A DNA stretch of 22,100 nucleotides from a virus, in IMG/VR virus record IMGVR_UViG_3300043172_000208, positions 1-22,100 of that record; one strand, written 5' to 3'. The notes under the pieces were generated by a model. It did not search any database. It saw only the letters and a program-made list of their open reading frames with translations, and was not told the origin of the DNA. This document shows, in pieces, positions 2,891 through 17,928 of the stretch. Positions within the stretch are counted from its first letter, which is position 1. Every line of letters begins with the position of its first letter. The position numbers were made by a program, and so were the translations under genes.

Positions 2891-5083
2891 CTACTTACCC
2901 TCTTCCTTTTTCGCTTCTTTCAAATCCTTTCTGAACCGTCTGATAAACTTAGAGTCTTTCTTAAACCCTCCAAGTTCTTCAAGCAATTCAGCCTTCTCTT
3001 TGTCTGACATTCTTCTGCCTTCTTTACGACCAGTTTTTCTTCTGGCTCTCACCCTCTTTTCTACTGGTCCTACTGCCGAAGTACTTTCACTTTCTGCCGC
3101 ACGTTCAAGAGCCGCTAGAATACGTTTAACTGATCCACCCTTCGCAAGTCCAGTGATCACCCTGCTTCCACCGTCTAGTGACTTGAGCTGAGAAGTGATT
3201 TCATTGACTCGCTTCTTATTACCAGACGTGATCGCTTGCTCTAACCTATTAGCTAGACGTTTGAGATTTCTCAGTGCTGTCTTACCAGTAGAAACTTTGC
3301 CGCCTTCTTCCATGTACAGTTCAGGTTTCTTGGCAGCATCACTGAAGCCTCCCTTCGCAAGCTTCTTCGCCTTGTGCTTGCGGAGCTTCTCGCGCATTTG
3401 ATCCAGACGACGCGCTCCGGCATCTGTACTTCCATCACCGAGTAACGCAACAGATTCACTGTCTATCACGTATTCACCGTCACTCAGCACTGCTGGAATA
3501 TCATCACTGCGACCAGTCCCAGGCCCACGAACGTGACCTCCGGTTTGATACTTCTGTATGAGTCCGCCGAGCGCAACATTAAGTCCTTGAGGGGGACCTC
3601 CGTATCCTCCGCCGTATCCTCCACTCGAATATCCCGGTGGGTACGCCATTCCGGAATTCTGATCGTACGTCCACCCTTGAGTTTGGAGTGATGCACCTTC
3701 AGTTGGAGATACCTGAAGAGGCTGAGTCCCCTGAATCATAGGACCACCTCCGCCAGTTGATCCCATCGGACCTTCTGGGGTCAGTGATGGAATCACGTTC
3801 GGCTCAAAGAATGATGCTTCACCTTCTTGCGGTCCGCTCGCTCTCCCATACGTGAAGTAGTCCGCCGCTGGCAACTGAGTCCTGTCAAACGAAAGATTCG
3901 GCAACGGATCATTGAACCCTGGAGGTAGATTAGCAGAGAAGTCTGGAGGTCCTTCGTCTCCACCACCGCCAAACGCTCCAGCCATTCCAGCAACACCGAG
4001 CGCTCCTCCGGCTGTGAGCCACGGATGTTCTTGCATCCAGTCTTTACTTCTATCCCACCAACTCGGGTCAGCTTGAGGAGCTCCACCAGATAACACTGCT
4101 CCGGGAGTGAGACCAGACCCGAGACCGGATATATCACCTGGATCTCCAGCGACTGTCTGTGGTAGGAGTTCACTGCCATAACCGAATGGATCTGCCGCAT
4201 TTGGATCGATACTCATAGACCCCGGAGTTACATCAAACTCACCCTTCATGCCTCCACCCATAGGAGTGAAGATATCTTTACCGATGTCAGTCAGCTTCCG
4301 CTCTATCTTCTGCATCGGTTTGCCCATCATAGACGAAATTGCTTGCCCGGTAGCTCCGGCTCCGAATCCTACACCTGTCGCTTCTCCTGCTACTCCACCG
4401 AGCAGAGCATCTCCAGCTATCTCTGCTGTCGCTCCACTCAATCCAATCTTCTTACCAATGTCAGCGCCGACTCCGCTCATCGTCAGACCACTGAGCGCTC
4501 CACTGATCGCTCCAGTCTTACCTCCACTGACTGCGCCGATACCAGTACGAAGAACCGTATTGCCGATCGTCGCCGCAGCTTTACCAGTAGCACCGAGCCA
4601 TCCGCCGATTGCACTGCCGAGCCCAGGAGCGAAAACATTCAATGCGATAGGAGCAAGGATGCTGAAGAGTGGGCTCTTGACAATCTTCTTAACTGTCTTC
4701 TTGATTCCTTTCCATAGCTTACTCAGGAATCCATACTCAGGAACACCTGTCGTCGGATTGATATCTGGCTCACCCCACATAGAAGTGATAGCTTCATACT
4801 CTTCAGGGGCTAGATGAAGAAGCATCTCGTCGTCACCGCGACCAGCTTGCCGAACTTCTTCAGCTTGCTGCTCCATGACCTGTCCGAGTCCGCCTTGTTG
4901 ATATCCATTGACCGCTCCGCCCATATTATACATACGAAGTTGTTTTGATTTTCCGCCCTTCGGACCACCGAGCTCTTCCGCTGCTACAGTCACGAGCATT
5001 TCTAATGCTCCAGGGACCTGAGCAAGAGAGCCGATCTGTTCGGTCATTTCTTTGCCGCGTTGAAATTCTGTTCGTCCTGTCAT
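2891..5083 (-). CDS. Putative internal virion / DNA-ejection protein, 730 aa
   Basis: The ATG at 5083 has AGGA five bases upstream. The protein has a mixed make-up. Residues 120-250 are a basic amphipathic helix (WKGIKKTVKKIVKSPLF) followed by Gly/Ala-rich hydrophobic stretches (ILAPIALNVFAPGLGSAIGGWLG, ISGALSGLTMSGVGADIG) that could enter a membrane. Residues 275-500 are Gly/Pro-rich and disordered. Residues 520-579 carry the GPGTGRSDDIPAVLSDGEY ... LGDGSTDAGARRLDQM motif known from many environmental phages. The C-terminal 130 residues are strongly basic. KGG or xGGx elements recur (MGGAVNGYQQGG, GGLIQKYQTGGHV, KLAKGGF, GLAKGGSV). The plan suits a protein packed in the capsid and injected with DNA. 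The next gene starts immediately after its stop. Confidence 0.7.
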   Translation of the reverse strand: MTGRTEFQRGKEMTEQIGSLAQVPGALEMLVTVAAEELGGPKGGKSKQLRMYNMGGAVNGYQQGGLGQVMEQQAEEVRQAGRGDDEMLLHLAPEEYEAITSMWGEPDINPTTGVPEYGFLSKLWKGIKKTVKKIVKSPLFSILAPIALNVFAPGLGSAIGGWLGATGKAAATIGNTVLRTGIGAVSGGKTGAISGALSGLTMSGVGADIGKKIGLSGATAEIAGDALLGGVAGEATGVGFGAGATGQAISSMMGKPMQKIERKLTDIGKDIFTPMGGGMKGEFDVTPGSMSIDPNAADPFGYGSELLPQTVAGDPGDISGLGSGLTPGAVLSGGAPQADPSWWDRSKDWMQEHPWLTAGGALGVAGMAGAFGGGGDEGPPDFSANLPPGFNDPLPNLSFDRTQLPAADYFTYGRASGPQEGEASFFEPNVIPSLTPEGPMGSTGGGGPMIQGTQPLQVSPTEGASLQTQGWTYDQNSGMAYPPGYSSGGYGGGYGGPPQGLNVALGGLIQKYQTGGHVRGPGTGRSDDIPAVLSDGEYVIDSESVALLGDGSTDAGARRLDQMREKLRKHKAKKLAKGGFSDAAKKPELYMEEGGKVSTGKTALRNLKRLANRLEQAITSGNKKRVNEITSQLKSLDGGSRVITGLAKGGSVKRILAALERAAESESTSAVGPVEKRVRARRKTGRKEGRRMSDKEKAELLEELGGFKKDSKFIRRFRKDLKEAKKEEGK

Positions 5084-5329: not shown

Positions 5330-6858
5330 GATTCTACTCTTTCGCCAGCTATATCTAACTGCGCCAACGTCTCGCCAAATTCGTAGTTTCCGCCCACTAT
5401 ATTAGATGTAAATTTGAAACTCATCAATCGTCTAATGGTTTTCAGTTTGATTGTCTCATCTGTAGAATCGCTTGCTACTTCAGGGAATGTTCTAGGTGCA
5501 TCTTCTATGAATGGAGCCTTTGAATTAACGCGACCTCGTATATTAAGTGTCATTTCTTCCTTCTGTACAAAATCAGGTTCCACGCGAGCTACTCTCATTT
5601 CCGCATTGCTCGGCTGCTGATCATCGACTGGCATTCCAATTTCTGCCGTTTCAAAGTGCGATGAAATTGCGGTAATTGTAGAACCATCTATTTCGTCCAC
5701 TCCAGTCTCATGCTGCCAAAGTGTAAACTTCATCGGAGCCCCGACATTATCTGCATCAACTAGGAATGGCTTGTTATATACTCGCGCATAGATTCCAGCC
5801 GTTCTTCCTGGAGTATTCCCAGGACTTCGTTCTAACGGTAGTTCCGTGTCGTACCATGATCCTTCTTTCACGTTGAAGATAATCGCATGAGTACACTCCC
5901 TCGCGCTTCCTCTTGGGTAGCACCACCATATTTCATGAAACCTGGGAACCTTGAATGCGAACACTTTCTGTCGTTGACTAAAATTCAAATTGTCAAAAAA
6001 GAAGTTGATATTAAAATCATTCGGTACATCACGCACGACACCATTGAACATGAGCCATCTATCTACTCCTGGCCAGAAGTACGTTCCATCATACTCGATG
6101 ACTGCCTGACTAGACAATATACTGATGTCAGATGCAAGCGTATCAAACTGCCATATCGCAAGTCCACCGACGAACACTGCACGAATGAGCGCATCCAATG
6201 ACCAGAAGATACCAGCCGGACCCTGACCTGCTCCGCGCAGAGGTAATCCGGCGACGACCTTCTGTTGCGTGATGAATGCTTCCGCCTCTAACGTAGTGGG
6301 GTCATTGACGTTAGACCAGCCGATGCGTCCATTGTTACCGAAGCTGAATAGGTATGGACCAAGAGTTACAATCCCTCCACTCACTTCTGGGAGAGTTGAA
6401 TCTACGAGTATAGAAGGATCTACTACTTCCCCAAGATAGATCTTTGAATTCACTGTACTATCTATGTCAGCAAGATTAGATCCAGGATGTGCGACCACAT
6501 CTGTGAAGATTGCGACTGCATCGAAGAAGTGATCAAACTGCCACAGAGCATTGACGTCTGTAAATCCTACAGGAGTTCGAGTGTTGAGCGCGCTCAAAGA
6601 TCCACTTCCAGTAACGATGTACTGAGTAAGATTACTCGCTCCACCGATGTGCAGATACCGAAGACCGTTCGCGCTGAAACTGGTCATTCCTCGTGCTATC
6701 TCTGGAACCTCGCTGGTCACTGCTTGATATCCGCCGATCTTTCGTGGACGTCCACGCTGGAACCGAACCCACTGTCCATCTATATAGTTCTCACCTTCAA
6801 GAACTGTTCCGTCCCGTTTAATACCAGGAGCAGACCTAATTTTAATCGGGTTGGCCAT
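5326..6858 (-). CDS. P22 gp10-like tail hub / DNA-stabilisation protein, 510 aa
   Basis: The start ATG overlaps the previous stop (TAATG). The N-terminus (IKIRSAPGIKRDGTVLEGENYIDGQWVRFQRGRPRKIGGYQ) is the pattern I associate with tail-hub (nozzle) proteins of P22-like and environmental podoviruses. Regular beta segments with aromatic ends follow (LRYLHIGGASNLTQY, ALWQFDHFFDAVAIF, GPYLFSFGNNGRIGWSNVNDP, AVFVGGLAIWQFDTL, EYDGTYFWPGVDRWLMFNG, HEIWWCYPRG), as in a beta-propeller. P22 gp10 is about 470 residues, so the length fits. The protein would extend the tail below the gp4-like adaptor. Its gene lies about 9.7 kb downstream of that adaptor, whereas in P22 the two are neighbours. The stop overlaps the next start by four bases. 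Confidence 0.7.
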   Translation of the reverse strand: MANPIKIRSAPGIKRDGTVLEGENYIDGQWVRFQRGRPRKIGGYQAVTSEVPEIARGMTSFSANGLRYLHIGGASNLTQYIVTGSGSLSALNTRTPVGFTDVNALWQFDHFFDAVAIFTDVVAHPGSNLADIDSTVNSKIYLGEVVDPSILVDSTLPEVSGGIVTLGPYLFSFGNNGRIGWSNVNDPTTLEAEAFITQQKVVAGLPLRGAGQGPAGIFWSLDALIRAVFVGGLAIWQFDTLASDISILSSQAVIEYDGTYFWPGVDRWLMFNGVVRDVPNDFNINFFFDNLNFSQRQKVFAFKVPRFHEIWWCYPRGSARECTHAIIFNVKEGSWYDTELPLERSPGNTPGRTAGIYARVYNKPFLVDADNVGAPMKFTLWQHETGVDEIDGSTITAISSHFETAEIGMPVDDQQPSNAEMRVARVEPDFVQKEEMTLNIRGRVNSKAPFIEDAPRTFPEVASDSTDETIKLKTIRRLMSFKFTSNIVGGNYEFGETLAQLDIAGERVES

Positions 6859-7232
6859 TACGGTTTGCCTATCCTCTGTCTGATAGCCGCGTTCACTTGA
6901 CCGAAATTCAAATCTGGAAGACTCTGCGTAGCTCGTAATGTGTTGAGTTCATCAACCAGAACTTTGATGATCGCTGTCAGATCTTTCTTTTCATCAAATA
7001 GATTCTGTGCAAATCCAGATTCCTGGTCTTCCAAAGCATCTACGAGTTCAGAATCTAGATTCGCCTGATCCGCAGTATAGGTGATGAGTCCAGCATCCAT
7101 CGTCGCTTGATCAATGTCTGGCAATTCAATTTCAAGAGTGTCGGGGTTAAAATATATCATCAGATCCATAGCGCCAACATGACGAGCGAAAGAATGCCAG
7201 TTGTGACCTACTAAAAGAGTAACTTTTCCCAT
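6858..7232 (-). CDS. Small acidic fibre-partner protein, copy B, 124 aa
   Basis: It begins inside the stop of the 795 aa fibre (TAATG), the same arrangement as copy A after the 1120 aa fibre. The sequence opens MGKVTLLVGHNWHSFARHVGAMDLM. Its middle (DQATMDAGLITYTADQANLDSELVDALEDQESG) and end (IIKVLVDELNTLRATQSLPDLNFGQVNAAIRQRI) line up with copy A over the full length, with mostly conservative changes. It is acidic and mostly helical towards the C-terminus, with no signal or membrane segment. Being tied one-to-one to a fibre gene, it is probably a fibre-specific chaperone or a small bound subunit. Its own stop overlaps the gp10-like start by one base. Family relation to copy A is visible directly; function is inferred. 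Confidence 0.8.
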   Translation of the reverse strand: MGKVTLLVGHNWHSFARHVGAMDLMIYFNPDTLEIELPDIDQATMDAGLITYTADQANLDSELVDALEDQESGFAQNLFDEKKDLTAIIKVLVDELNTLRATQSLPDLNFGQVNAAIRQRIGKP

Positions 7233-9619
7233 TATGCTATTATCTCCAATTCCAGCCAGATTGAACCGAACACAGTGAATCCACTGGAGTTCTGGCGCAG
7301 CACGTACACCTCAAAATAATCTCCGGCGTTCACGTTAAGGACTCCGGTGTTGAACTGCGTTCCCCACCAACTACCAGATCCGGCGGCGCTGTTTGTGTTC
7401 TGATAAAGGTATCCTGATGGTCCAACTTGAACTGGATCAGTAGGAAGATACCCACCATTCCTTCTTATCCGCATGTGACGATAGCCGCCGGACGTATTAC
7501 CTTGTATTCCGTATCCAGTACGGATGATTGCCTTAGTCACTCCCGGAGGTACATTGAACCGAGTTCGCTGCGCGATTGACCAGACAGCACCACCTTCGGT
7601 GTCATGTAGTATCACGCCGAATATTACTGCTGCCTCATCGTTGCCACCACCGAGACCCGGAACTGCAAGCGAGAAGTTCGGAGTGTTATTCAATGGCCAA
7701 TTCCCAGTGGTGTTCCGATATACTTTAGTCCCTCGGTATGCTCCTCCACCTCCTCCTCCGCCATTTAAGACAAAGTCAGTACCAACATCATCGGTAAATA
7801 TCAAGTTGTTTGGTACATCGTCCCTGACCCAAAGCGAACCGAAGTTAGCAACATTTGAAAGCGCAGCAGACTTTTCCTCAATACGAATCTCAATCCCATC
7901 GTGGAAAGCCCATGACCAATCATTCGCAGAATTTGGAGTCCAGCTAATTCCATTCGTACCAACAAAGGCATTGATATTGTTTCCGATGTCATCGCGGATC
8001 TGGAAGAAACCACTGGAATCTGTATTCACTCTAACGATCTTGTCTTGAATCGTCAAGGCGTTGTTGGCACCGACTTCGAACGATATAAAACCTGCGGCAT
8101 CTATTTTGAGTTGCAACGAGTTTACAGCTACGACTTCCATCGCAACATTAGAAACTATATTAACTGGTGCAGGTTCGGTGGCATCAATGGTTAAGAGTCC
8201 AGTGCTAGGGAATCCGCTTTGCACTGTGAGCGCTGCACCAAGTTGAATGTCGATGCCTTGTGTCGTGAACTTTCCAGCAAACGTGACAGTCTCGAGATCG
8301 GGTACTCCTCCTCCGGCTGCCGCGACAACATCAGCGACCGTCGCCTTACGACTAAGATCTGAATCATCTATATCCTGAAAGACCAAGAAATCTGCAGCAT
8401 CAGGAACAGCTATCGTGAGACCTAACAGAGCAACATTGAATGTGATGTCGGCGGCGAGAGTACCAGTACCATCTAATCCCTCTCCTGCAATGATCGCTCG
8501 TGTATTCGGAGGCACTCCCAGGTTCGTTCTCGCTCCAGGTGCAGAAATTGCTCCTGTCCCACCCTGAGCAATCGTAATGGGAAAGGTGATTACACTGGAT
8601 TCCGCATCCAACACGTTAGTTCCGTCACAGTACAGGATTACTCTGTTCCCTTGCGGAATTCCAACTGGTGTCACTTGTGTTGCTGTCGCAACTTCTAGAG
8701 CGAATGCTCCGGTCGTATTGTTGTCCACCCAATACTCTTGGATAGTACTCGGTACGATAATCTTTCTATTGGCAGTCAATGCTCCAATGAACCGATAAGC
8801 TACACGATCCAACTGAACGCCAGACAATACGAAGTCACCACCACCGGCAACATTGACCTCGATGAAATCAAAGCCAGTATCCAAAGCAGAAGTCAATCCG
8901 ACTGTGAACCAATCAGACCCATCCGTTATGAAGATACCTGACACTCCAGGGTTCAGTATCAAATTGATGTTACCATCAATAAGTCCAATCGGGGTTGATA
9001 TCGTCAGTACACCTGTTCCACCATTTCTTATGTATGTAAACCAGTCAGAGCCGACAGTTACCGGATCCGGTAGATTAAACGTGCCGACTCCTCCGTTCCA
9101 GATATTCAACTGCGCACGATCAGCGTCCGTCATGTTCAGTGGCGATTGTCCTGCACCAATCAGTGTGGGAGGAAGGGTCTGGTTGAGCTTCGTCATTATC
9201 GCTTTGAGACCAGCACCTGCGAGTGCAGCCGCAGCAGCGACAGAAACAGTCGCTCCAAGTTGGAACGTTCTCCATACTCCAGCCGCAGTGCTGTTATCCG
9301 TCAGGTAGATGAACCACGCTGTCCCGCCGATCGGAGTTATGATCGTACCTCCTGCGCTGTCCCGTACAGTGAAGTCGTCGAACCCTACGTTTGTGATTAA
9401 GGAAGTGTACCCGGTTGACACCTGACGAGCATCACTGAAGTCAACATTGAGTCCAGGAATAGTTGCATTGACATCAATAATATCTACCGCTACGTCATCA
9501 CCACCGATCTGCTGTTCTATCGGCCACTGAAGTACGACATCAGCACTGATCGTTAGATCTAAGTATGTCCTCTGTGCAGGGTTGATCGATCCGCCGCCGA
9601 AGACGTCATTGTATCCCAT
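7232..9619 (-). CDS. Composite tail fibre, 795 aa
   Basis: A perfect AGGAGG lies six bases before ATG 9619. The N-terminal part (SINPAQRTYLDLTIS, VLQWPIEQQIGGDDVAVDIID, AWFIYLTDNSTAAGVWRTFQLGA, residues 11-125) is a virion-binding region I know from environmental podovirus fibres. Around 350-370 lies an AQGGTGA...ARTNLGV motif common in fibres and often a recombination point. Residues 405-433 (PDAADFLVFQDIDDSDLSRKATVADVV) look like the attachment segment found at the very start of the other two fibres. One WVRDD module sits at 597-618, then Gly7, then a C-terminal jelly-roll-like tip (RTRFNVPPGVTKAIIRTGYG ... LNVNAGDYFEVYVL). The stop overlaps its small partner gene (TAATG). It is probably a receptor-binding fibre. 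Confidence 0.85.
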   Translation of the reverse strand: MGYNDVFGGGSINPAQRTYLDLTISADVVLQWPIEQQIGGDDVAVDIIDVNATIPGLNVDFSDARQVSTGYTSLITNVGFDDFTVRDSAGGTIITPIGGTAWFIYLTDNSTAAGVWRTFQLGATVSVAAAAALAGAGLKAIMTKLNQTLPPTLIGAGQSPLNMTDADRAQLNIWNGGVGTFNLPDPVTVGSDWFTYIRNGGTGVLTISTPIGLIDGNINLILNPGVSGIFITDGSDWFTVGLTSALDTGFDFIEVNVAGGGDFVLSGVQLDRVAYRFIGALTANRKIIVPSTIQEYWVDNNTTGAFALEVATATQVTPVGIPQGNRVILYCDGTNVLDAESSVITFPITIAQGGTGAISAPGARTNLGVPPNTRAIIAGEGLDGTGTLAADITFNVALLGLTIAVPDAADFLVFQDIDDSDLSRKATVADVVAAAGGGVPDLETVTFAGKFTTQGIDIQLGAALTVQSGFPSTGLLTIDATEPAPVNIVSNVAMEVVAVNSLQLKIDAAGFISFEVGANNALTIQDKIVRVNTDSSGFFQIRDDIGNNINAFVGTNGISWTPNSANDWSWAFHDGIEIRIEEKSAALSNVANFGSLWVRDDVPNNLIFTDDVGTDFVLNGGGGGGGAYRGTKVYRNTTGNWPLNNTPNFSLAVPGLGGGNDEAAVIFGVILHDTEGGAVWSIAQRTRFNVPPGVTKAIIRTGYGIQGNTSGGYRHMRIRRNGGYLPTDPVQVGPSGYLYQNTNSAAGSGSWWGTQFNTGVLNVNAGDYFEVYVLRQNSSGFTVFGSIWLELEIIA
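7742..7762 (-). repeat. GGA-type triplet repeat coding seven glycines
   Basis: Seven Gly codons in a row (mostly GGA) form a hinge between the WVRDD module and the tip of the 795 aa fibre. Triplet slippage could alter hinge length in frame. Confidence 0.8.
7762..7832 (-). repeat. WVRDD module, third copy (795 aa fibre)
   Basis: This encodes LWVRDDVPNNLIFTDDVG followed by TDFVLN and is related to the two copies in the 1120 aa fibre. It lies directly before the Gly7 hinge and the C-terminal tip. Confidence 0.8.
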
Positions 9620-9620
9620 G

Positions 9621-10265
9621 CTATGCCTCCTGTCTCGTTGAAGACCTATCTATGATCTTTTGTATATCTTCGCCGTTCAATAGTTGCAGATCACGATCGT
9701 ACGTCTGCTGCCACAATGGAACTCGTTTGTCGTTCACTAAGAACCTCGATGATTGGAGCAATGCTCCATGGAGCAGTGCGTTCGGTGCATACAACGACGA
9801 CCAGTTTGTTTGATTCGTCGCATCTAAAAGTGCCGGAAGCTCGTAGTACAGAAGTTCAAACGGATACGCAAAGTCCGGCGTTGGACTGAACAAGAAGTTG
9901 AAGTAGTCGTAGTCCGCGTAAAATCTTGGCTGATTTCGTAGATCTTCATCTGGCCAGTAGAGCCGACAGTACTCGTAAGAACGTGGGAACAGAGGGGTTC
10001 TCACCTGCTCTGCTCCCACGCCGAAGTTGATGCTTACTGTATCTCTCCAACGATCTGGCTTCTGGTACACTGAAGTTCCTATCGCCATTGTATTTGTCAC
10101 AACATTGATGAATCCTTGGATCTTCAACGCGCGAGCAAGATCTCGTTCCGCGAGGTTAATCAAGCGGGGGAGTTGATCAAACACCGTCGGATCGACTGAT
10201 GTGCCACGCTCCAGGTAATCTCTCAAATCATCTTGCAGAGAATCAAATGTCATTGCAGTAGGCAT
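9621..10265 (-). CDS. SU10-type head-tail adaptor-like protein, 214 aa
   Basis: The ATG at 10265 has AGGAG eight bases upstream. Residues 5-50 (MTFDSLQDDLRDYLERG ... FDQLPRLINLAERDLARALKIQGF) are the typical opening of phage adaptor proteins of the SU10 type. Then come a TSVYQKPDRWRDTVSINF segment, RSYEYCRLYWPDEDLRNQPRFYADYDYFNFLFSPTPD (about 103-136), YELPAL, and a helical end with NALLHGALLQSSRFL. These proteins form the ring below the portal. Finding it next to a fibre gene, with a separate gp4-like adaptor encoded about 6 kb upstream, is unusual. One of the two may connect fibres rather than head and tail. The family call is good; the exact place in the virion is open. Confidence 0.75.
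   Translation of the reverse strand: MPTAMTFDSLQDDLRDYLERGTSVDPTVFDQLPRLINLAERDLARALKIQGFINVVTNTMAIGTSVYQKPDRWRDTVSINFGVGAEQVRTPLFPRSYEYCRLYWPDEDLRNQPRFYADYDYFNFLFSPTPDFAYPFELLYYELPALLDATNQTNWSSLYAPNALLHGALLQSSRFLVNDKRVPLWQQTYDRDLQLLNGEDIQKIIDRSSTRQEA
9626..9631 (-). promoter_or_regulatory. Consensus ribosome binding site of the 795 aa fibre
   Basis: AGGAGG, six bases before ATG 9619, is the strongest Shine-Dalgarno I noticed in the window. It suggests high fibre output from the operon message. Confidence 0.7.
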
Positions 10266-10276
10266 CGTTCGTACTC

Positions 10277-10627
10277 CTACTCAGGCTCAGGCTCAGGTTC
10301 TGGTTCCGGCTCAGGTTCCGGCTCAGGCTTCGCTGCTGCCTCCGCCGCTTTCTGGATGGTATTGTGAGCCGCATCACTGCGATCTCGAAGCGTCTGCCAT
10401 TCAGTTGGAGTCGGGGCTCTGTTTCCTTCAGCCATCTTTTGAATTACCTCCGTGAACTCTTTCAGTTCTGTATGTGCTTCATCCCCACGTTCCAGCAACT
10501 CACCGAGCATAGCCAACAGTTCAGATGCTTCTTGCAACTTCAAGTTGGATCCACCACTGAGCGCCGGATTGTTAGTCAGCACAGATACTCCGCGAATTGC
10601 GACAAGGATCAATTGAATAATATTCAT
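10277..10627 (-). CDS. Helical protein with (Pro-Glu)8 tail, 116 aa
   Basis: The start overlaps the lipoprotein stop by one base (TAATG). The N-terminus (MNIIQLILVAIRGVSVL) is hydrophobic or amphipathic but short for a membrane helix. Residues 28-95 are helical and include LKLQEASELLAMLGELLERGDEAH and a PTPTEWQTLRDRSDAAH segment. The latter matches small phage proteins I know from lysis or tail-end gene neighbourhoods. Residues 101-116 are eight Pro-Glu pairs, a stiff acidic rod coded by a hexanucleotide-type repeat. Function unknown. Membrane contact through the N-terminus and a reach into the periplasm are inferences from its neighbours only. Confidence 0.75.
   Translation of the reverse strand: MNIIQLILVAIRGVSVLTNNPALSGGSNLKLQEASELLAMLGELLERGDEAHTELKEFTEVIQKMAEGNRAPTPTEWQTLRDRSDAAHNTIQKAAEAAAKPEPEPEPEPEPEPEPE
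10280..10327 (-). repeat. Hexanucleotide repeat coding (Pro-Glu)8
   Basis: There are eight near-copies of CCTGAG/CCGGAA-type units on the minus strand. They lie just before the stop and encode the acidic tail of the 116 aa protein. Such repeats can change in number by slippage without shifting the frame. Confidence 0.85.
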
Positions 10628-11043
10628 TACGTCGCTCCTCGCACTGCGGATATAAGATTAGCGATTAGAGGTCTCGCTCGTTCGACCCATGCGTTTAGCT
10701 CATTCATAGCTCTCACGAACTTCTCCTCTCCTGTTCCGCCAGCTTCATACTCTGCTTTGATCACTGTGAATTCCAGTGTCGCATCTAGCAATGAGTCTGC
10801 TACTGGCTTCGCCTGTGCATCCGCGCGTCCTATCGCTCGTATAGCACTGTCCGGAATAGTACCACTGGAAACGAGCTTCGCAGCTTGTTCCTCAATGATA
10901 ACGAACGTACCATACGTCGCGAATGCTCTCTGTTCAGTTGTTTCTGCCTTCGCGATTGGGTTCGATGCCGCACATGCTTGAAGCGCGAGCATAACCACGA
11001 ATAGGTAGAACGTCTGAACGTGATTCCATCTTACTGGTATCAT
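10627..11043 (-). CDS. Lipoprotein, possible o-spanin, 138 aa
   Basis: The N-terminus has a basic start (residues 1-8), a hydrophobic segment (YLFVVMLALQ) and a lipobox LQAC with the cysteine at position 24, followed by AAS. After signal peptidase II cleavage the mature protein would be about 115 residues. It is mostly helical and polar (AETTEQRAFATYG, IIEEQAAKLV, SLLDATLEFTVIKAEYEAG, MNELNAWVERARPLIANLISAV). Ala at +2 predicts sorting to the outer membrane of a Gram-negative host. Within the cassette it could pair with the one-TM coiled-coil protein as a two-component spanin. It is longer than most o-spanins, so a different envelope role remains possible. The start overlaps the holin-like stop by four bases. 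Confidence 0.75.
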   Translation of the reverse strand: MIPVRWNHVQTFYLFVVMLALQACAASNPIAKAETTEQRAFATYGTFVIIEEQAAKLVSSGTIPDSAIRAIGRADAQAKPVADSLLDATLEFTVIKAEYEAGGTGEEKFVRAMNELNAWVERARPLIANLISAVRGAT

Positions 11044-11273
11044 CCTACTGTACCTCCTCCGTCACCCGATCCTGTGACTTTGTTTACCAGACGTCGGGCT
11101 GATATCGCCTGGAAGTCTTTGAAGAATGTGATCGCGCCACCGATCAGCAGTATGGTCCACTGAAGACCGGAGATGTCACTCAAAGAAATGATTGATTCCC
11201 CGCTCAATAGTGCCAGTGCTGCCGTCAGTAAAGCAATGACGGTCGCAATAAATGCTCCTACGATTGTATTCAT
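11040..11273 (-). CDS. Two-TM holin-like membrane protein, 77 aa
   Basis: I chose ATG 11273 because AGGAGAG lies four bases upstream. An in-frame ATG at 11291 falls inside the previous gene. The product has two membrane helices (about 4-24, IVGAFIATVIALLTAALALLS, and 36-52, GLQWTILLIGGAITFFK). A short loop joins them, and a basic segment (ISARRLVNKVTG) and a Gly-rich tail follow. Size, two helices and a basic C-terminus fit class II-type phage holins. The neighbours (DUF5675-like protein, lipoprotein) fit a lysis cassette. Similar small proteins are found in other phages, but I know of no proven holin activity for this family. The stop overlaps the lipoprotein start by four bases (ATGA). Confidence 0.75.
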   Translation of the reverse strand: MNTIVGAFIATVIALLTAALALLSGESIISLSDISGLQWTILLIGGAITFFKDFQAISARRLVNKVTGSGDGGGTVG

Positions 11274-11274
11274 C

Positions 11275-11757
11275 TTACTCTCCTGTCCCACACTTGGAAC
11301 TGATTGTCAGACGATGAGTTTCCTCCCGCCCTAATTGTTCAGTGATGATCTTCATAGCTTCACCACTACTTGAAACGGCGCGCTCGTATTTTCCTGTTTT
11401 ACGATTCTTCATTACAGTGCGCCGAGTCCCAGGTCCGATGCATCCTACGACGTCACCAACGTAGTTCGCAATATGAATAAGAACAAGATAACGACCGAAA
11501 CTACGCGGTCTATCATCTTTCAACCTGTACACTCCCAGGTCAGGGTTCGATAAAATATACACTTCACCTCTGTTCGGTCTTGTCCATGGGTCAAGTATGT
11601 AATCCCCATCAGGGATGCAGGAAGCAAATGGCTTTCCTCCTCGAGCATCCCAAGACACCCACGGACGTTCAATAGTAGCCAGATCAAAAGAACCAATACT
11701 AAGAACACCCTCAGTTTCCGATGGTGCATAACTGAACCTCTCAAGCGTTAGATTCAT
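11275..11757 (-). CDS. DUF5675-like protein in endolysin position, 160 aa
   Basis: The features I recall for DUF5675 are all present: a short N-terminal strand then GVLSIG, the LATIERPW segment (26-33), FASCIPDGDY (44-53) and RYLVLIHIANYVGDVVGCIGPG (89-110). The family is common in phages and has no settled function. His95 and Cys106 lie close together in an IHxxN...GCI pattern. This recalls, but is not proof of, the His/Cys pair of L,D-transpeptidase-type enzymes. The gene sits between a one-TM coiled-coil protein and a two-TM holin-like protein, and no ordinary lysozyme, amidase or transglycosylase is in the window. That makes a role in the cell wall or lysis plausible. No signal peptide is seen, so it would need a holin to leave the cytoplasm. 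Family call fairly sure; activity unproven. Confidence 0.75.
   Translation of the reverse strand: MNLTLERFSYAPSETEGVLSIGSFDLATIERPWVSWDARGGKPFASCIPDGDYILDPWTRPNRGEVYILSNPDLGVYRLKDDRPRSFGRYLVLIHIANYVGDVVGCIGPGTRRTVMKNRKTGKYERAVSSSGEAMKIITEQLGREETHRLTISSKCGTGE
11278..11284 (-). promoter_or_regulatory. Ribosome binding site deciding the start of the holin-like gene
   Basis: AGGAGAG lies four bases before ATG 11273, within the end of the DUF5675-like gene. It supports the shorter 77-residue product. Confidence 0.6.
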
Positions 11758-12128
11758 CAGCTTGTGTTGTTCGCTACGAGAGCCGCCTTAGCTTCTTCCA
11801 ATGCAGCCAACTGAATTTCTAGATCAGCCAAATACTCTGCATCGCCCACAGTCCAATCCTCGTCTTGTCTTTGTCGGAACTCCAACGCCGCGATATCCTT
11901 TTTCGTAGCGTTGATGTCCCGTTGCAGCAAGGCAACGAATGCACTATTGATCGGATCCACCTGGGATGCGACCGTTTCCTTGATCGACTCCTGCATCTCT
12001 TCAGCTAATGCATCCACGAGGATGGGCTGAAGAATGAACCAGAAAATAGGCACGAGACCTGCGTAGGTAATGATCTGATTCACACCTATGCGAATTCCCG
12101 CCTCTTTAACTTCGGCCTTGCTTGCCAT
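11757..12128 (-). CDS. One-TM coiled-coil protein, possible i-spanin, 123 aa
   Basis: I chose ATG 12128 (MASKAEVKEAG). GGAGAAG ends four bases before it, and the previous stop lies one base away. An in-frame ATG at 12158 would overlap the previous gene. A charged N-terminus is followed by one membrane helix (about residues 16-38, VNQIITYAGLVPIFWFILQPILV). A long polar helical part (41-118), rich in Ala, Glu, Gln and Asp with heptad-like hydrophobics, comes next. This is the plan of inner-membrane spanin subunits: a cytoplasmic N-terminus, one helix and a periplasmic coiled coil. The lipoprotein three genes later could be its outer-membrane partner. It could instead be a holin-type or other membrane protein. 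The stop overlaps the next start by one base (TGATG). Confidence 0.75.
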   Translation of the reverse strand: MASKAEVKEAGIRIGVNQIITYAGLVPIFWFILQPILVDALAEEMQESIKETVASQVDPINSAFVALLQRDINATKKDIAALEFRQRQDEDWTVGDAEYLADLEIQLAALEEAKAALVANNTS

Positions 12129-12129
12129 T

Positions 12130-12402
12130 TTACTTCTCCGCTTTCTTCCCACCTTCAATGGGAACTATGCCTGACTTCTTCTCACCATCACCGTCACCTT
12201 CTTCCTTCTTGGCTGGTACATTGACGACGACTACTTGACCGTTAGCAATCGCTGTCAGGAGCGCATTCAACGTACCTATGACTCCACTGATAGCCATCGG
12301 ACTAGGGATACTCACTGCACCAGGAGTCTGTAGAAGTTGAACTCCTGCTGCCGCAGCTTGCTGTGTCTGTTCGTGAGTGAGATTTACAAGGTTCTGTTCC
12401 AT
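12130..12402 (-). CDS. Small Ala/Lys-rich protein, 90 aa
   Basis: The ATG at 12402 has AGAGGAAG five bases upstream. Residues 1-60 include an Ala/Gln-rich helix (THEQTQQAAAAGVQLLQ) and a mildly hydrophobic stretch (ISGVIGTLNALLTAIANGQVVVVNV, residues 38-62). That stretch is not convincing as a membrane helix because of its polar residues. The C-terminus is a charged low-complexity tail (AKKEEGDGDGEKKSG ... GGKKAEK). It opens the row of small genes that reads as a lysis cassette; its stop is one base from the next start. I do not recognise the family. It could be a minor lysis-related or structural protein. Confidence 0.65.
   Translation of the reverse strand: MEQNLVNLTHEQTQQAAAAGVQLLQTPGAVSIPSPMAISGVIGTLNALLTAIANGQVVVVNVPAKKEEGDGDGEKKSGIVPIEGGKKAEK
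12133..12139 (-). promoter_or_regulatory. Ribosome binding site deciding the start of the one-TM protein
   Basis: GGAGAAG lies four bases before ATG 12128, inside the coding end of the previous gene. It fits ATG 12128 better than the upstream ATG 12158. Confidence 0.6.
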
Positions 12403-12415
12403 GGTTACTTCCTCT

Positions 12416-12793
12416 TTATGTATTATCTATGGTGTTGCGAATTGCCGAACGAGCTTGATCTATCGTTCGGTTGGGTAAACCTTCTATTGTTCTAAGAATA
12501 TTGATTTCATCGAGTAGTATCTCTACCAGTGCGCGAAAGAGTCTGCGCACATCATACGCTTCCTTCTCCGAATCCTTCTCCGCAGTTTCTTGATCAGCCG
12601 CAGTAGCGGCGTCAATGTTTGTCTGGTCGGCTACGTAACTAGCGAATGCCGTGTCGAGAGTTGCCTGATCTGCACTCTCAACTTCCAGTTCGGTAGTAGC
12701 TGGATGCCAAATGTTGAGAAATGGATCGGCTCCCGCCATCTCTGCAATCTTAACCCAGTCGTGAGAAAGTGTTGCAACTACTTTGAATCCCAT
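12416..12793 (-). CDS. Small acidic fibre-partner protein, copy A, 125 aa
   Basis: The gene starts inside the fibre stop (TAATG), so it is surely co-translated with the fibre. The protein begins MGFKVVATLSHDWVKIAEMAGADPF. It has an acidic centre with a DQATLDTAFASYVADQTNID segment and ends in a helical part: ALVEILLDEINILRTIEGLP ... QARSAIRNTI. It is clearly a paralogue of the 124 aa protein that follows the other fibre in exactly the same way (6858-7232). Shared elements are DQAT-D, Y-ADQ-N-D, LV-DE-N-LR, LP and AIR-I. Size, acidity and place fit a fibre chaperone or a small subunit of the fibre complex. It does not match the known families of tail-fibre assembly proteins that I can recall, so the role is inference. 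Confidence 0.8.
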   Translation of the reverse strand: MGFKVVATLSHDWVKIAEMAGADPFLNIWHPATTELEVESADQATLDTAFASYVADQTNIDAATAADQETAEKDSEKEAYDVRRLFRALVEILLDEINILRTIEGLPNRTIDQARSAIRNTIDNT

Positions 12794-15700
12794 TATATTA
12801 ACCTCACAGCTTTCATTGAAATTTCATTTGCATTATCTGTACCTGCACCTCCACCGGTCAAAGTCTCACTGAGTTGCAACGTGATGAAGTCGGTGGCAGT
12901 TAGACTGACGATAAACGTGAAGGAGAGATGGTTATCGAATGGTGCAGTAGCATCTCTGTGGAAATCGGTATGATTAACAGAACCTGGGATGCCTGTCCCC
13001 GCATCATTGAGTCGTACTCTTGCGTTTATACTACGGCGACGATTTGCTGCTCCGGGATCCGGATCAGCAGTAACGTCAACCATAACCTCATAAGTGCCAG
13101 TCGCTCCGATTATGATATTATCGGTATTAGTGACAAGATCGTGATCTAACACGGTGGCGTCTGTCTCGACATCCGTCACGTCCATTGTGATGTCAACGAA
13201 TGCTGTAGTGAGTAAGTAGTCTGTCGTACGACGAGCCTGAACTGAATGATTCCGACCCGTTGTACCCAAATTCAATGCGAAGTCATTGCCAGCGTCATCT
13301 GTGAACATCGGAGTGTTCGGTGTGTCGTCGCGTACCCACCACTGCCCGTATCCAGCAACGTCAGCACCAGCAGCCGCTTGTTCATCCATCAATATCGGAT
13401 ACTCAATCTGCAGAGCGTCGGTGTTCACACCTCCCATCGTGAAGTAAGTTCCGTTGTGCGCCATCTGAACCCAATCAGTATTACCAGCATCTTCAATACG
13501 GAATCCTAATCCATCACCAATCGTGAAGATGCCTGTAGAAGGACCATCGAGATAAAGAATAGGTCCGATTGCGCCAACACCCTGATTCTGAATCCAGAAG
13601 TCATTAGTCTGTGCTCGATCTTCAAACCTAAGCGACATACCATCTTCGAGATTAAAGCCAGGATCAGCTTCATCCATGCCACCAACGTTGATAGTCGAGG
13701 CACCTAAACTATCAAGCGCATTCGTTAGCAATGCACCGACTGCAGTCATTCGGACAAGAGTGTTTTCAACCCACGCTGAGCCATTCCAACGAAGCGAAGC
13801 ATCAGTTACCGTACCAGCCGGAAGCTCACCTCCAGGTCCAACACCCGCATTCAGGACAAAGTCAGTACCAGCATCGTCAGTGAACATTGGGACGTTAGGA
13901 ACGTCATCTCGCACCCAGAATGCACCATCTGCTGCCCCTGGAACGGGTGAAGTATTTCGTTCATCGAATTCTAGAAACTTGGTTGCCGAAATGTGGAATG
14001 ACGTCTCATCAAAGAAATAGTTTTGCTGAATCATTGCAACCTGCTGAGTCGATGAACTCAGCCGCAAGATGTCATTGTGAGCGTTAGAACTAAAGTCTAA
14101 CCTGTGATTGAGGGATGATAATGAATAGTCATGTCGTATGAAGAAAAAGTTAGCTCCGGTCTGATCCCGCAGAGTAGCAAAGTTATATAGAGTACTGCCC
14201 GTCGGCAATACATCGATCACATCGGCACTTGGTGCTACGTTTATAATACTCAGATGAGGTCCAGGACCAGTCGTAGCGTCTATCGTCAAGTTATCTAAGA
14301 TATCAACAGTGATCGCACCGGCAACTTCAGTAACACTAAGTCCCAGAACTCCTCCAGCAGTTAATCCAAGAATGTCAAGCCCAGGATTGTACACGCCAGT
14401 ATCAGTGTCAACAGCGAAACTGTAAGTCGGTACTCCGACTCCACCGGAACTGAGCAACAGAGGATCTGTCGATCCTATCTCTGATACGAATGCCAGAGTC
14501 TCCGCACCCTGCTTGATCCGACCAGAAAGACCCGTAATGTTGATGTCAGTCGTACCGACTGTAGCTAACAGCCCGTCAACACCATCGTGACTCCACTTAA
14601 GAGAAAAGGCGTCAGTAGTATCATAGATGGCGAGGACGTTACCATGTCGGATGCCCACTTCGCCTGAACCCTCTATCCGTACCCTCTCAGTCGAATCCGT
14701 GAACAGTGAGAAAGGAGTAGCTGCGTTTTGAGTACCTATCCCTCCACTTTGACCGGCAGGTCCATTCACTATCACAGCAGCTACATGGTTGGCACCTGTG
14801 TGAAAGATTTGTACATCACCTCCGCCAGGAGTAGTTTCACGCTGACCAAAGATCTGTACATTAGTTCCACCCAGATCACCGACATTGTCATTTACAAATC
14901 TAGCTGTGACAAAATCAGAAGGGAAGTCAGAATCACCATGTACTTTGAAATATAAGTTACCTGCGGGACTCGAAGCATTTGATTCAATATCAATGCCGTC
15001 GCCCAATCCATTGATAATAAATGCTCCGCCATTGACGGCAGTCATGTTGAAATCAGTATTGTCATGCTCCATGCGCATACGACTACTGAGACCAGATCCA
15101 AAAATCTCAAGGCGCTTGTTGGTACGGTCCCATTGAAACTGTGCATCACCCTCAAGTGTACCGTCTCCGGTCCATACACCTATCTGCTCATCAACAGGAA
15201 TACCGACCTTGAATACGTTACCGAATCCACTTGAAGGTCCATTATAAAGTACATCCCAGAACTGCCCTGTTGAACCAGCACCACCGACAGCGATCAATGA
15301 ATCTCCAGCAGCGACAGTTATTGAATTGTTAGGTCCGTTACCGAAGTCATTGTTGGTACTTGGGAATACCTGCAGAACATTCGCACCACGATTGACGATG
15401 ACAAGTTGCATCCCTCGGTTCTTCTGAGGAGCCGTCACCACGTCGTTCGGGTTCGCTACAGTAATCACTTCACTGTAAGACGAATTCAGTTGACCTTGGA
15501 ATTGAGTCTGCGTAGTTGAGGCGACAATTCCATCTTCAAACTTATTCGTAACGGTCACTTCGCCCGAGAGAGCGCGGTAGCTGACTCCCGTCTCTCCATC
15601 TGCGACCAGTTCTACTTGATTCCCGGATCCACTAGCGAGTCCAGAACCAGTTCGTCCTTGATGTGGCAACACCGTGGGAGTGTTCGCTGACGTGTTCGCC

Positions 15701-16155
15701 GCTACAAGAGCGGGTCCACCGGAGAACTGATCAGACCTAAATTGATTGCCATTGTACTCCCACCTATTGACGCCAGCGATAGCAACCACCAAAACATCGG
15801 GGCCAGATAAGAAGAAACCTGTATTAGGATCAGACGCGAAACTATAAGAAGGTGCAGGAGCAGAACCGTCAGGAGCTAACAGTGGAAATGAGATACTGAC
15901 TGTAATTGGATTGCCTGCTCCACCATCAACAATGTTGATATTAGTTCCAGCAGTAAGAATTCGCTCGTTCGGAAGAACCGCATTCGGAGTAACCGTAATG
16001 AACGTCGCATCCAGTCCCAGTGCTGAACCCGCTAAGTCAGTAGCTGAGACTCTTCTACTATCGTCTTTCCCAGCTATAGTCTGAGTGAGTTCTAACTGTT
16101 CATTTCCAGTCAGCGGAAGAACTGCTTGAGGTAGATCTGAAATCTTTACAGTCAT
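12793..16155 (-). CDS. Tail fibre with C1q/TNF-like tip, 1120 aa
   Basis: I chose ATG 16155, one base after the previous stop and with GGGAA seven bases upstream. An in-frame ATG at 16185 would overlap that gene. The N-terminus (TVKISDLPQAVLPLTGNEQLELTQ ... SRRVSATDLAGS) is a classic fibre attachment segment. TG-centred units follow at about residues 97-140 and 563-610, like those of the 847 aa fibre. Two copies of a WVRDDxPNxPMFTDDAGxDF module sit at 747-769 and 940-962. The last 150 residues (TAFVDITMDV ... IIIGATGTYEVMVDV ... HLSFTFIVSLTATDFITLQL) look like a C1q/TNF-type jelly roll, a fold phages use as trimeric receptor-binding tips. The stop overlaps the next gene by one base (TAATG). 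The fibre role is firm; the receptor is unknown. Confidence 0.85.
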   Translation of the reverse strand: MTVKISDLPQAVLPLTGNEQLELTQTIAGKDDSRRVSATDLAGSALGLDATFITVTPNAVLPNERILTAGTNINIVDGGAGNPITVSISFPLLAPDGSAPAPSYSFASDPNTGFFLSGPDVLVVAIAGVNRWEYNGNQFRSDQFSGGPALVAANTSANTPTVLPHQGRTGSGLASGSGNQVELVADGETGVSYRALSGEVTVTNKFEDGIVASTTQTQFQGQLNSSYSEVITVANPNDVVTAPQKNRGMQLVIVNRGANVLQVFPSTNNDFGNGPNNSITVAAGDSLIAVGGAGSTGQFWDVLYNGPSSGFGNVFKVGIPVDEQIGVWTGDGTLEGDAQFQWDRTNKRLEIFGSGLSSRMRMEHDNTDFNMTAVNGGAFIINGLGDGIDIESNASSPAGNLYFKVHGDSDFPSDFVTARFVNDNVGDLGGTNVQIFGQRETTPGGGDVQIFHTGANHVAAVIVNGPAGQSGGIGTQNAATPFSLFTDSTERVRIEGSGEVGIRHGNVLAIYDTTDAFSLKWSHDGVDGLLATVGTTDINITGLSGRIKQGAETLAFVSEIGSTDPLLLSSGGVGVPTYSFAVDTDTGVYNPGLDILGLTAGGVLGLSVTEVAGAITVDILDNLTIDATTGPGPHLSIINVAPSADVIDVLPTGSTLYNFATLRDQTGANFFFIRHDYSLSSLNHRLDFSSNAHNDILRLSSSTQQVAMIQQNYFFDETSFHISATKFLEFDERNTSPVPGAADGAFWVRDDVPNVPMFTDDAGTDFVLNAGVGPGGELPAGTVTDASLRWNGSAWVENTLVRMTAVGALLTNALDSLGASTINVGGMDEADPGFNLEDGMSLRFEDRAQTNDFWIQNQGVGAIGPILYLDGPSTGIFTIGDGLGFRIEDAGNTDWVQMAHNGTYFTMGGVNTDALQIEYPILMDEQAAAGADVAGYGQWWVRDDTPNTPMFTDDAGNDFALNLGTTGRNHSVQARRTTDYLLTTAFVDITMDVTDVETDATVLDHDLVTNTDNIIIGATGTYEVMVDVTADPDPGAANRRRSINARVRLNDAGTGIPGSVNHTDFHRDATAPFDNHLSFTFIVSLTATDFITLQLSETLTGGGAGTDNANEISMKAVRLI
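13270..13338 (-). repeat. WVRDD module, copy 2 (1120 aa fibre)
   Basis: This encodes WVRDDTPNTPMFTDDAG followed by NDFALN. It lies immediately before the jelly-roll tip, the same relative place as the copy in the 795 aa fibre. Confidence 0.8.
13849..13917 (-). repeat. WVRDD module, copy 1 (1120 aa fibre)
   Basis: This encodes WVRDDVPNVPMFTDDAG followed by TDFVLN. The plus strand reads GACAAAGTCAGTACCA, 16 bases identical to the copy in the 795 aa fibre near 7769. In this fibre it precedes a Gly-rich hinge (GVGPGGELPAG). Confidence 0.8.
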
Positions 16156-16156
16156 A

Positions 16157-16525
16157 TTACAATTCCCACGGCGGAATTCCGCCATCTGGAGCCTGTTCTA
16201 TCTGACGATATTCACCAGACTCTGTCACACGAACATTCGCGTCTACGCCAGCAGTTCCGCGTACGACACCTAAGAATAAAGTCGGATCTGGTGTAATCAC
16301 ATTGTCTACTGGTCTATCTGGCCGAACATACAGCAGATTAATCTCTTCAGTCGGTCGTGCAGCCAAACGATATGGATCGTACTCATCCAGATCGTCAAGA
16401 CACACCATCAACCCTGGAGCATTGGGATCACTATACAAATCTTCAAGCTTCATCTTTCGGCTGCATCTCGCGCAGATACCAAGACCGAAGGTTGACGCGC
16501 CAGAAGGATCTATAAAGATGCTCAC
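16157..16525 (-). CDS. Small cysteine-motif phage protein (zinc-ribbon-like), 122 aa
   Basis: The start is GTG at 16525, in a GTGA overlap with the adaptor stop. Residues 17-48 read G-I-CARC-SRK ... GLMVC-LDDLDEYDP. This is the layout of a small metal-binding ribbon seen in many phage proteins encoded next to tail-connector genes. Three cysteines (18, 21, 42) are present. The usual fourth one, two or three residues after Cys42, is replaced by Asp44/Asp45. The middle (RPTEEINLLYVRPDRPVDN) also fits that family. The rest is Pro/Gly/Asp-rich and ends in GGIPPWEL. No enzyme motif is seen. It is probably a minor structural or assembly protein made together with the adaptor. The metal binding is a guess while the fourth ligand is unproven. 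Confidence 0.75.
   Translation of the reverse strand: MSIFIDPSGASTFGLGICARCSRKMKLEDLYSDPNAPGLMVCLDDLDEYDPYRLAARPTEEINLLYVRPDRPVDNVITPDPTLFLGVVRGTAGVDANVRVTESGEYRQIEQAPDGGIPPWEL
16163..16169 (-). promoter_or_regulatory. Ribosome binding site deciding the start of the 1120 aa fibre
   Basis: GTGGGAA on the minus strand lies seven bases before ATG 16155. It sits inside the end of the previous gene and favours this start over ATG 16185. Confidence 0.5.
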
Positions 16526-17598: not shown

Positions 17599-17928
17599 TT
17601 ACTTCCCGTGATACGGACACATCTTTCCACCCTTCATCATATACTTCTTTCCGCCCTTCTCGTAGTACGTCTTTCCGCCTTTCTTCATCTCGACGTATCC
17701 ACCCTTCTTGAAGCCAGCCAGCATCCTCTTCGTTCCGCCAGCCTCAATCTCTGCTTGATTACGACCCTTCCTTGCTGGTTGAACACCATGATCCATGGCG
17801 TCTTGCTTACTTGTCTTCATTACGAATTCGCCGGACGTATTCACCTGTCCACCCTTCGCGAATCCCATCGCCTCGCCGTGACTTTCAACTCCGACTCCGG
17901 GTTGTGCGCCTTTCTTGAAACCTTCCAT
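17599..17928 (-). CDS. Small basic KGG-motif protein, 109 aa
   Basis: The ATG at 17928 has AGGAG seven bases upstream, and the gap of 24 bases before it is the largest in the window. The protein is basic and full of short (F/Y/M)xKGG elements: GFKKGAQ, GFAKGGQV, GFKKGGYVEMKKGGK, YYEKGGKKYMMKGGKM. It ends in CPYHGK, with one Cys and one His. The middle part (residues 32-68) has little regular structure. There is no membrane segment. Similar KGG elements occur in two large proteins further down this operon (the 730 aa and 352 aa genes), so the motif may serve a common purpose in the virion. The function is unknown. The next gene, the tail adaptor, starts three bases after its stop. Confidence 0.8.
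   Translation of the reverse strand: MEGFKKGAQPGVGVESHGEAMGFAKGGQVNTSGEFVMKTSKQDAMDHGVQPARKGRNQAEIEAGGTKRMLAGFKKGGYVEMKKGGKTYYEKGGKKYMMKGGKMCPYHGK

Follow-up and report, generated by a model that had tools for sequence, protein, structure and literature searches.

The stretch of DNA analysed here, which we call the window, is 22,100 nucleotides long and comes from a viral record that is a 22.1 kb linear fragment. On its minus strand, positions 11275..11757 encode a protein of 160 aa with an ATG start, which matches the Pfam family PF18925 (DUF5675) at 51.2 bits, the Pfam cut-off being 26.7. The gene is real and its product is a confident member of DUF5675, which is also its sole Pfam match at E<=1. 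The same protein matches PHROG 1501, annotated as 'unknown function', and NCBIfam holds no family that matches it. The only hydrophobic peak in its hydropathy profile is internal, and that profile revealed no signal peptide and no N-terminal hydrophobic segment. The plus strand of 11275-11757 was also considered as coding, and was rejected on account of its stop codons and lack of a gene.

The gene is part of a cassette transcribed in the order fibre-like protein, 12416-12793 protein, a 90 aa protein, a transmembrane (TM) protein, DUF5675, a holin-like protein, a lipoprotein, a 116 aa protein and an SU10-type adaptor. At its two ends lie the fibre-like protein (12793-16185, minus strand), which matches a tail-fibre PHROG at 2.9e-6, and the adaptor (9621-10265; PF24175, 1.9e-25). 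The TM protein (11757..12158, minus strand, 133 aa, its start possibly an internal ATG) has, by hydropathy, one TM segment and a charged C-terminal part, and is a possible inner-membrane spanin-like or holin-like partner. On the other side of DUF5675, the holin-like protein (11040..11291, minus strand, 83 aa) carries a strong hydrophobic segment with a hydropathy of 2.57 over residues 10-28, with no holin match in Pfam or PHROG, and the lipoprotein (10627..11043, minus strand, 138 aa) has the lipobox LQAC at residue 21 and is a possible outer-membrane spanin-like partner. Hydropathy and the lipobox thus bear out the cassette of holin-like, one-TM and lipoprotein genes described in a first-pass annotation of this DNA. 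The order TM protein, DUF5675, holin-like protein, lipoprotein is kept in 4/4 close relatives (L002-L005), one of which, L002, is 100% identical to the window over the cassette genes and is consequently not an independent relative. In another genome, L044, the TM protein beside DUF5675 (1593-1937, minus strand) is 64% identical to that of the window and the DUF5675 proteins are only 26% identical, so that there the TM partner is better conserved than the enzyme.

Several other features of the window were observed. The minus-strand genes at 6858-7232 and 12416-12793 encode small paralogous proteins (34% identity, E 4e-23), each lying directly downstream of a fibre-like protein (7232-9619 and 12793-16185, respectively), and they may perhaps represent two fibre plus chaperone modules. 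The three fibre-like proteins, at 7232-9619, 12793-16185 and 17953-20496 (minus strand), have repeated segments in common, and two of them match a tail-fibre PHROG weakly. Short KGG-type repeats are present in three otherwise unrelated proteins encoded at 1832-2890, 2891-5083 and 17599-17928 (minus strand).

The first-pass annotation had compared His95 and Cys106 of the DUF5675 protein with the catalytic pair of L,D-transpeptidases, and had proposed structure prediction and a fold search as a check. An AlphaFold2 model built from 105 aligned sequences reached a pLDDT of 93.6 and a pTM of 0.88, and the L,D-transpeptidase fold came out on top of the search. In Foldseek against the PDB there was no match to the model at E<=0.001; the two best were Tlde1a structures (E 0.021 and 0.048; probabilities 0.87 and 0.82), and the next row had a probability of 0.07. 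In a VIA-align comparison with the top 998 chains, rows 1-17 were all L,D-transpeptidases, L,D-carboxypeptidases, Tlde1a or DpaA, with Z from 10.4 to 6.7, and the next value was 2.9. These rows included Pgp2 (10.4), Csd6 (9.4), Tlde1a (8.8), the M. smegmatis L,D-transpeptidase (8.7), LdtMt2 (8.4), DpaA (7.9), B. subtilis Ldt (7.3) and V. cholerae LdtA (6.9); a Z below 8 can reflect a common arrangement, and the weight rests on the gap to unrelated rows and on the single family at the top. The protein is therefore predicted from its model to have the L,D-transpeptidase (YkuD) fold and to belong to that superfamily. Among predicted viral structures there were ten matches at E<=0.001, including proteins named DUF5675 and, from BFVD, the crAss-like phage protein A0A7M1RYB0, which is named 'L,D-carboxypeptidase/transpeptidase'.

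Sequence comparison points suggestively the same way. The family was extended with a purpose-built HMM (184/185 loci), and 114 non-redundant sequences were aligned (alignment A2) and scanned against the 24736 models of Pfam. All 114 matched DUF5675, 41 matched PF10908 (Tlde1_dom; best 1.3e-4) and 11 matched PF03734 (YkuD; best 2.3e-3), the next-commonest family being matched by 6; the other 73 did not match PF10908 even at E<=1, and at that threshold the window protein itself matched neither PF03734 nor PF10908. The motif of YkuD proper, H-x(14-17)-[S/T]-H-G-C-x-R/N, is not that of DUF5675, where the spacing between His and Cys is 11, the second His is not conserved and the position two residues past Cys is never Arg. 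Neither the protein nor the 114-row profile found an L,D-transpeptidase among PDB sequences, their matches being chance ones only. When hhalign was run against E. coli LdtA, LdtB, LdtC and LdtE, without and with DpaA, the E value was 0.043 and the score 19.4, near chance given a best score of 19.2 among 40 shuffles; in the register of this near-chance alignment, IHxxN faces IHGTN and GCI faces GCV, and His95 and Cys106 pair with the catalytic His and Cys of the Ldt enzymes. As a link to L,D-transpeptidases by sequence alone this is suggestive, and it is the fold that decides.

The residues in question are at the positions given by the first-pass annotation. On the minus strand, the codon of Cys106, the proposed nucleophile, is at 11440..11442, that of His95, the proposed general base, at 11473..11475, that of Asn98, conserved beside His95, at 11464..11466, and that of Cys47 at 11617-11619. 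Tyr53, His95, Asn98, Gly105 and Cys106 are invariant in A2 (114/114), most rows of which were found with a DNA pattern demanding His, Asn and Gly-Cys, so that conservation there is by construction; the loci L017-L136, found by a pattern requiring His and Gly-Cys, are excluded from what we claim about His and Cys. Twenty-eight A2 rows did not come from the DNA-pattern scan, some of them coming from peptide patterns that included the His segment, and all 28 have Tyr53, Arg89, His95, Asn98, Gly105 and Cys106. A set free of this bias was obtained by running the Pfam model over 369 gammaproteobacterial genomes, which gave 14 places in 12 genomes, one of them (L330) below the Pfam cut-off. His95 is kept in all 14 of these bacterial copies and Cys106 in 13, the exception being L331, where Tyr replaces Cys and a stop codon interrupts the frame; Asn98 is replaced in L322, L328, L329 and L330. 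Furthermore, the His/Cys motif is present in all 15 fetched phage records and in the 4 close relatives. Together with the predicted fold and the family profiles touching Tlde1 and YkuD, this conservation upholds the comparison with the L,D-transpeptidase pair.

Cys47 fared differently. It had been placed in a conserved-looking segment, but its position is occupied by Cys in only 58/114 sequences of A2, with Ala in 40 and Arg in 13, and a catalytic or disulphide role for it was rejected on that count. Among the 28 rows obtained through relatives instead of the pattern, 26 have Cys there, which makes it a feature of a subgroup. The residue two positions past Cys106 is Arg in 0/114 sequences, being Leu, Gly, Ala, Ile or Val in 114/114, and DUF5675 shows no conservation of the second His in (S/T)HGC.

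The position of DUF5675 genes in better-known phages bears on their function. Mu has its late activator C followed by endolysin gp22, Rz-like gp23, gp24 and the DUF2730 gene gp25. In the Mu-like Vibrio phage ZX4290, C is followed by DUF5675, two small genes, a DksA-like gene and DUF2730, and phage Martha 12B12 shares this arrangement except for an extra gene that separates C from DUF5675. The HP1 series runs sheath, orf24, hol, lys, an Rz-like gene and orf26, and the HP1-like Vibrio prophages PQ189330 and PQ189350 have sheath, tube, a YbiI-like gene, DUF5675, an uncharacterised gene, a lipoprotein and an orf26-like gene. DUF5675 thus occupies the endolysin slot in two unrelated phage plans. 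It shares this genome place with Mu gp22 and HP1 lys, which are of the muramidase type and differ from it in having the PF00959 lysozyme fold and glycosidase chemistry.

Elsewhere, too, DUF5675 genes have membrane-protein neighbours. In phage 1.122.A, DUF5675 and a 'holin of 3TMs' form an isolated two-gene unit; in phages 1.206.O and 137E35-1, DUF5675 is followed immediately by a TM gene, and in Salinibacter phage M8CC-19 a holin lies three genes beyond it. Over 183 loci, small TM genes were found at position -1 in 65/163 cases and at +1 in 57/138, as against 190/1641 elsewhere (p about 1e-17), and lipoprotein-like genes at +1 in 11/154 and at +2 in 7/134, against a background of 9/1688; the loci counted are not independent of one another, and TM segments and lipoboxes were called by simple hydropathy rules. 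Among named holin families, PF11351 and PHROG 3427 occur downstream (6/104 each) and PF05105 upstream (4/103); the alignment of '+1' neighbours (A5) consists of 99 such proteins and five hand-added rows (L187, two from L186 and two from L006), so that its holin counts lean slightly to known cases. Most DUF5675 neighbours have no known holin or spanin profile. The gene is accordingly found where an endolysin gene would be expected, in a lysis locus beside holin and spanin genes, which in the window are recognised by hydropathy and lipobox only.

The first-pass annotation also stated that the cassette lacks a known endolysin, and this was confirmed: Pfam revealed no ordinary endolysin among the 23 complete ORFs of the window, and a PHROG scan of about 16 of its larger and cassette ORFs found none either, an absence that applies to the window and not to the whole virus. 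The DUF5675 protein itself has no profile match to the known endolysin families PF00959, PF01510, PF13539, PF08291, PF00182, PF01464, PF05838 and PF07486, and the longest close relative, G003 (37.9 kb), has none of eight lysin families. An ordinary endolysin together with a non-conserved His/Cys pair had been named in advance as evidence against a cell-wall role; neither was seen, the endolysin search covering the window and His and Cys being conserved.

We extended the search to a census of eight Pfam lysin families in 50 records, made up of 31 with DUF5675, 17 random contigs, Mu and HP1. The DUF5675 records were 13 named phages, taken from 53 phage records found by tblastn, and 18 IMG/VR contigs, chosen by length (37-67 kb) among more available; two microviruses lay outside the census. 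The controls were random IMG/VR contigs of 26-61 kb, their DUF5675 status unchecked and their hosts unmatched, and with this reservation lysin families were found at E<=1e-3 in 3/31 DUF5675 records and in 9/17 random contigs (Fisher p 0.0017), or in 3/31 and 6/17 when only matches above the Pfam cut-offs were counted (p 0.051). The three DUF5675 records with another lysin match were M8CC-19 (Hydrolase_2), L018 (SLT) and L028 (GH108), and the tail cluster of phage 1.122.A includes an NlpC/P60 gene. Both positive controls, Mu and HP1, matched PF00959, a family found in 0/31 DUF5675 records. In the accessible text of papers on the DUF5675-bearing Vibrio phages R21Y and Virtus, no lysozyme or holin is named, and endolysins are referred to generically or go unmentioned.

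Taken together, these observations lead us to propose, with a probability of roughly 70%, that the phage uses the DUF5675 protein as its endolysin, and that this protein is a cysteine peptidase, small and soluble, with the L,D-transpeptidase (YkuD/Tlde1) fold. The target of Cys and His in YkuD-type enzymes is the L,D bond at position 3 of the stem, and the activities of these enzymes are described as transpeptidase, carboxypeptidase and endopeptidase (PMC12729407). An Arg two residues past Cys is common in cross-linking members, and DpaA, which has Ala there, hydrolyses (PMC10653827); the lack of this Arg in 114/114 aligned sequences points to hydrolysis in DUF5675 as well. We infer the enzymatic activity, the exact bond, lysis by the DUF5675 protein and its dependence on a holin, the last of these because there is no hydrophobic segment at its N-terminus. 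According to this model, the signal-less protein would accumulate in the cytoplasm until the neighbouring holin-like protein opens the membrane, and would then reach the periplasm. There, His95 would activate Cys106, whose thiolate would attack the meso-diaminopimelate (meso-DAP) carbonyl at stem position 3, releasing D-Ala4 and, in a 4-3 cross-linked stem, the neighbour bonded to it, after which water would hydrolyse the thioester. Such L,D-bond cleavage would open ordinary 4-3 cross-links and trim tetrapeptides, and the TM/coiled-coil protein and the lipoprotein would then complete the outer-membrane step. Since a cut between meso-DAP3 and D-Ala4 severs a 4-3 cross-link, a hydrolase of this fold could serve as an endolysin provided that the cross-linked partner fits into its groove.

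L,D-carboxypeptidase activity on its own would not lyse cells, a point against the proposal. The main alternative is that the protein is an L,D-carboxypeptidase, a D-amino-acid exchange enzyme or a DpaA-like amidase releasing Braun lipoprotein, which would remodel the envelope and aid an unrecognised main lysin or the outer-membrane step. The nearest structural matches agree with this, being L,D-carboxypeptidases (Pgp2 and Csd6), Tlde1a and DpaA, enzymes that trim or detach and that do not by themselves degrade sacculi, and some DUF5675 phages do have another hydrolase. We nevertheless consider it unlikely, given that two unrelated phage plans have DUF5675 in the very slot of the endolysin and that 28/31 records lack any of the eight lysin families searched. 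The same fold and Cys/His pair would also suit a true L,D-transpeptidase, whose 3-3 cross-links might, for instance, keep the infected cell from lysing too early or shield it against other phages, but a location in the lysis slot, and the absence from all 114 sequences of the Cys+2 Arg that many transpeptidases have, make this extremely improbable.

Two further explanations place the protein outside lysis altogether. A virion-borne enzyme opening the wall for DNA entry would fit a gene lying among tail and head genes, and the relative in Ralstonia phage RP31 is a domain of a very long protein; most records, however, have a small free-standing gene beside membrane-protein genes, and Mu-like and HP1-like phages carry DUF5675 in the lysis slot and not among their tail-tip genes, so that we give this explanation little credence. 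It seems similarly improbable that the fold is used otherwise in the present phage, for binding or regulation, by a protein that is not an enzyme. Such a use has a possible precedent in L315, which has lost both residues and kept the domain beside a peptidoglycan-binding one, but the window protein, like nearly all others, retains both His95 and Cys106, and the joint loss of the two in L315 is itself what a catalytic pair would be expected to show.

The proposal of an endolysin of the L,D-transpeptidase fold has been anticipated in part. One sentence of a 2022 paper on Mu lysis proposes that the Martha 12B12 protein is an L,D-transpeptidase-like endolysin, from synteny and HHpred (PMC9239132). 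We found that this protein, YP_007877532.1 (NC_021070, matched by position), is a DUF5675 member about 40% identical to that of the window. The earlier proposal, as worded in that sentence, concerns one Mu-like phage, names no family and is a prediction only, and the present phage is not Mu-like in the window; it precedes ours all the same, and the kind is not wholly new. The first-pass suggestion of a cell-wall enzyme or lysis factor of an undescribed kind is therefore supported in its first part, a lysis enzyme being the best reading of the gene's context, and goes too far in 'undescribed'. A family-wide case for DUF5675 as endolysins was not found in the open-access literature, subscription papers and preprints lying outside the search. 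We came to the view put forward for Martha 12B12 independently, and what is added to it here is the predicted fold, the conserved catalytic pair, a second phage plan, the lysin census and the family-wide lysis context. PhaLP lists YkuD among the catalytic classes of phage lytic proteins, with 10 proteins assigned through PF10908, cd16913 and PF03734 (PMC8310338); this is the same superfamily, but PF18925 is not listed in the accessible part of that source.

Among the closest known systems are the Tlde1 proteins (PF10908), whose Tlde1a structures 7uma and 7uo3 were the best Foldseek PDB matches, with a VIA-align Z of 8.8, and whose profile is matched by 41/114 DUF5675 members at E<=1. The spacing between His and Cys is short in both, 10 residues in Tlde1a by the numbering of PMC9638812 and 11 in the window protein, and the Tlde1 motif as quoted in that paper has, like DUF5675, no Arg after Cys. 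DUF5675 differs in lacking a conserved second His of (S/T)HGC, in forming its own Pfam family and in being mostly a free-standing phage gene beside holin-like genes. Pgp2, Csd6 and DpaA resemble it in fold, with high Z (10.4, 9.4 and 7.9), and DpaA shares with it the absence of the transpeptidase Arg; they differ in being exported bacterial enzymes with extra domains, 9-12% identity and another gene context.

DUF5675 was also observed outside the phages considered so far. The genomes of two microviruses, each about 5 kb long, include such a gene (L007, 3009-3419; L008, 7-384), a candidate for an enzymatic lysis gene in ssDNA phages. In the gammaproteobacterial locus L326 (262-1890, plus strand), DUF5675 (2.1e-17) is the C-terminal domain of an Rhs protein with TEN_YD-shell (8e-20) and RHS_repeat (1.6e-9) domains, an arrangement seen with antibacterial toxin domains. 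In L315 (1182-1853, plus strand), from a Flavobacteriales MAG outside the sets used for conservation, DUF5675 is fused to PG_binding_1 (3.5e-14), and His is replaced by Gln and Cys by Ser, both being lost together; it is probably an inactive, binding-only relative. Both fusions associate the domain with the cell wall or with an antibacterial context. Finally, L321 and L322 have an N-terminal DUF5675 in proteins of about 420-440 aa with a common unnamed C-terminal part (Pfam scan: L321).

A broader reading, on which we regard the odds as evenly poised, is that DUF5675 is a widespread, unnamed class of endolysin, made up of thiol L,D-peptidases that have the transpeptidase fold and cut meso-DAP3-D-Ala4 inside cross-links. 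Such a class would have repeatedly displaced muramidases, in Mu-like and HP1-like phages, and would serve marine podovirus-like phages, including the present one, as well as microviruses with single-gene lysis, its domain being reused as a toxic Rhs tip. If this is right, it would give a function to a large family of uncharacterised proteins and account for host escape by the many marine and Vibrio phages in which no endolysin is recognisable, and annotation pipelines could fill that gap in many phage genomes. L,D-peptidase chemistry would join the short list of endolysin activities, and a fold with which bacteria make 3-3 cross-links would have been turned by phages into a tool for breaking the wall.
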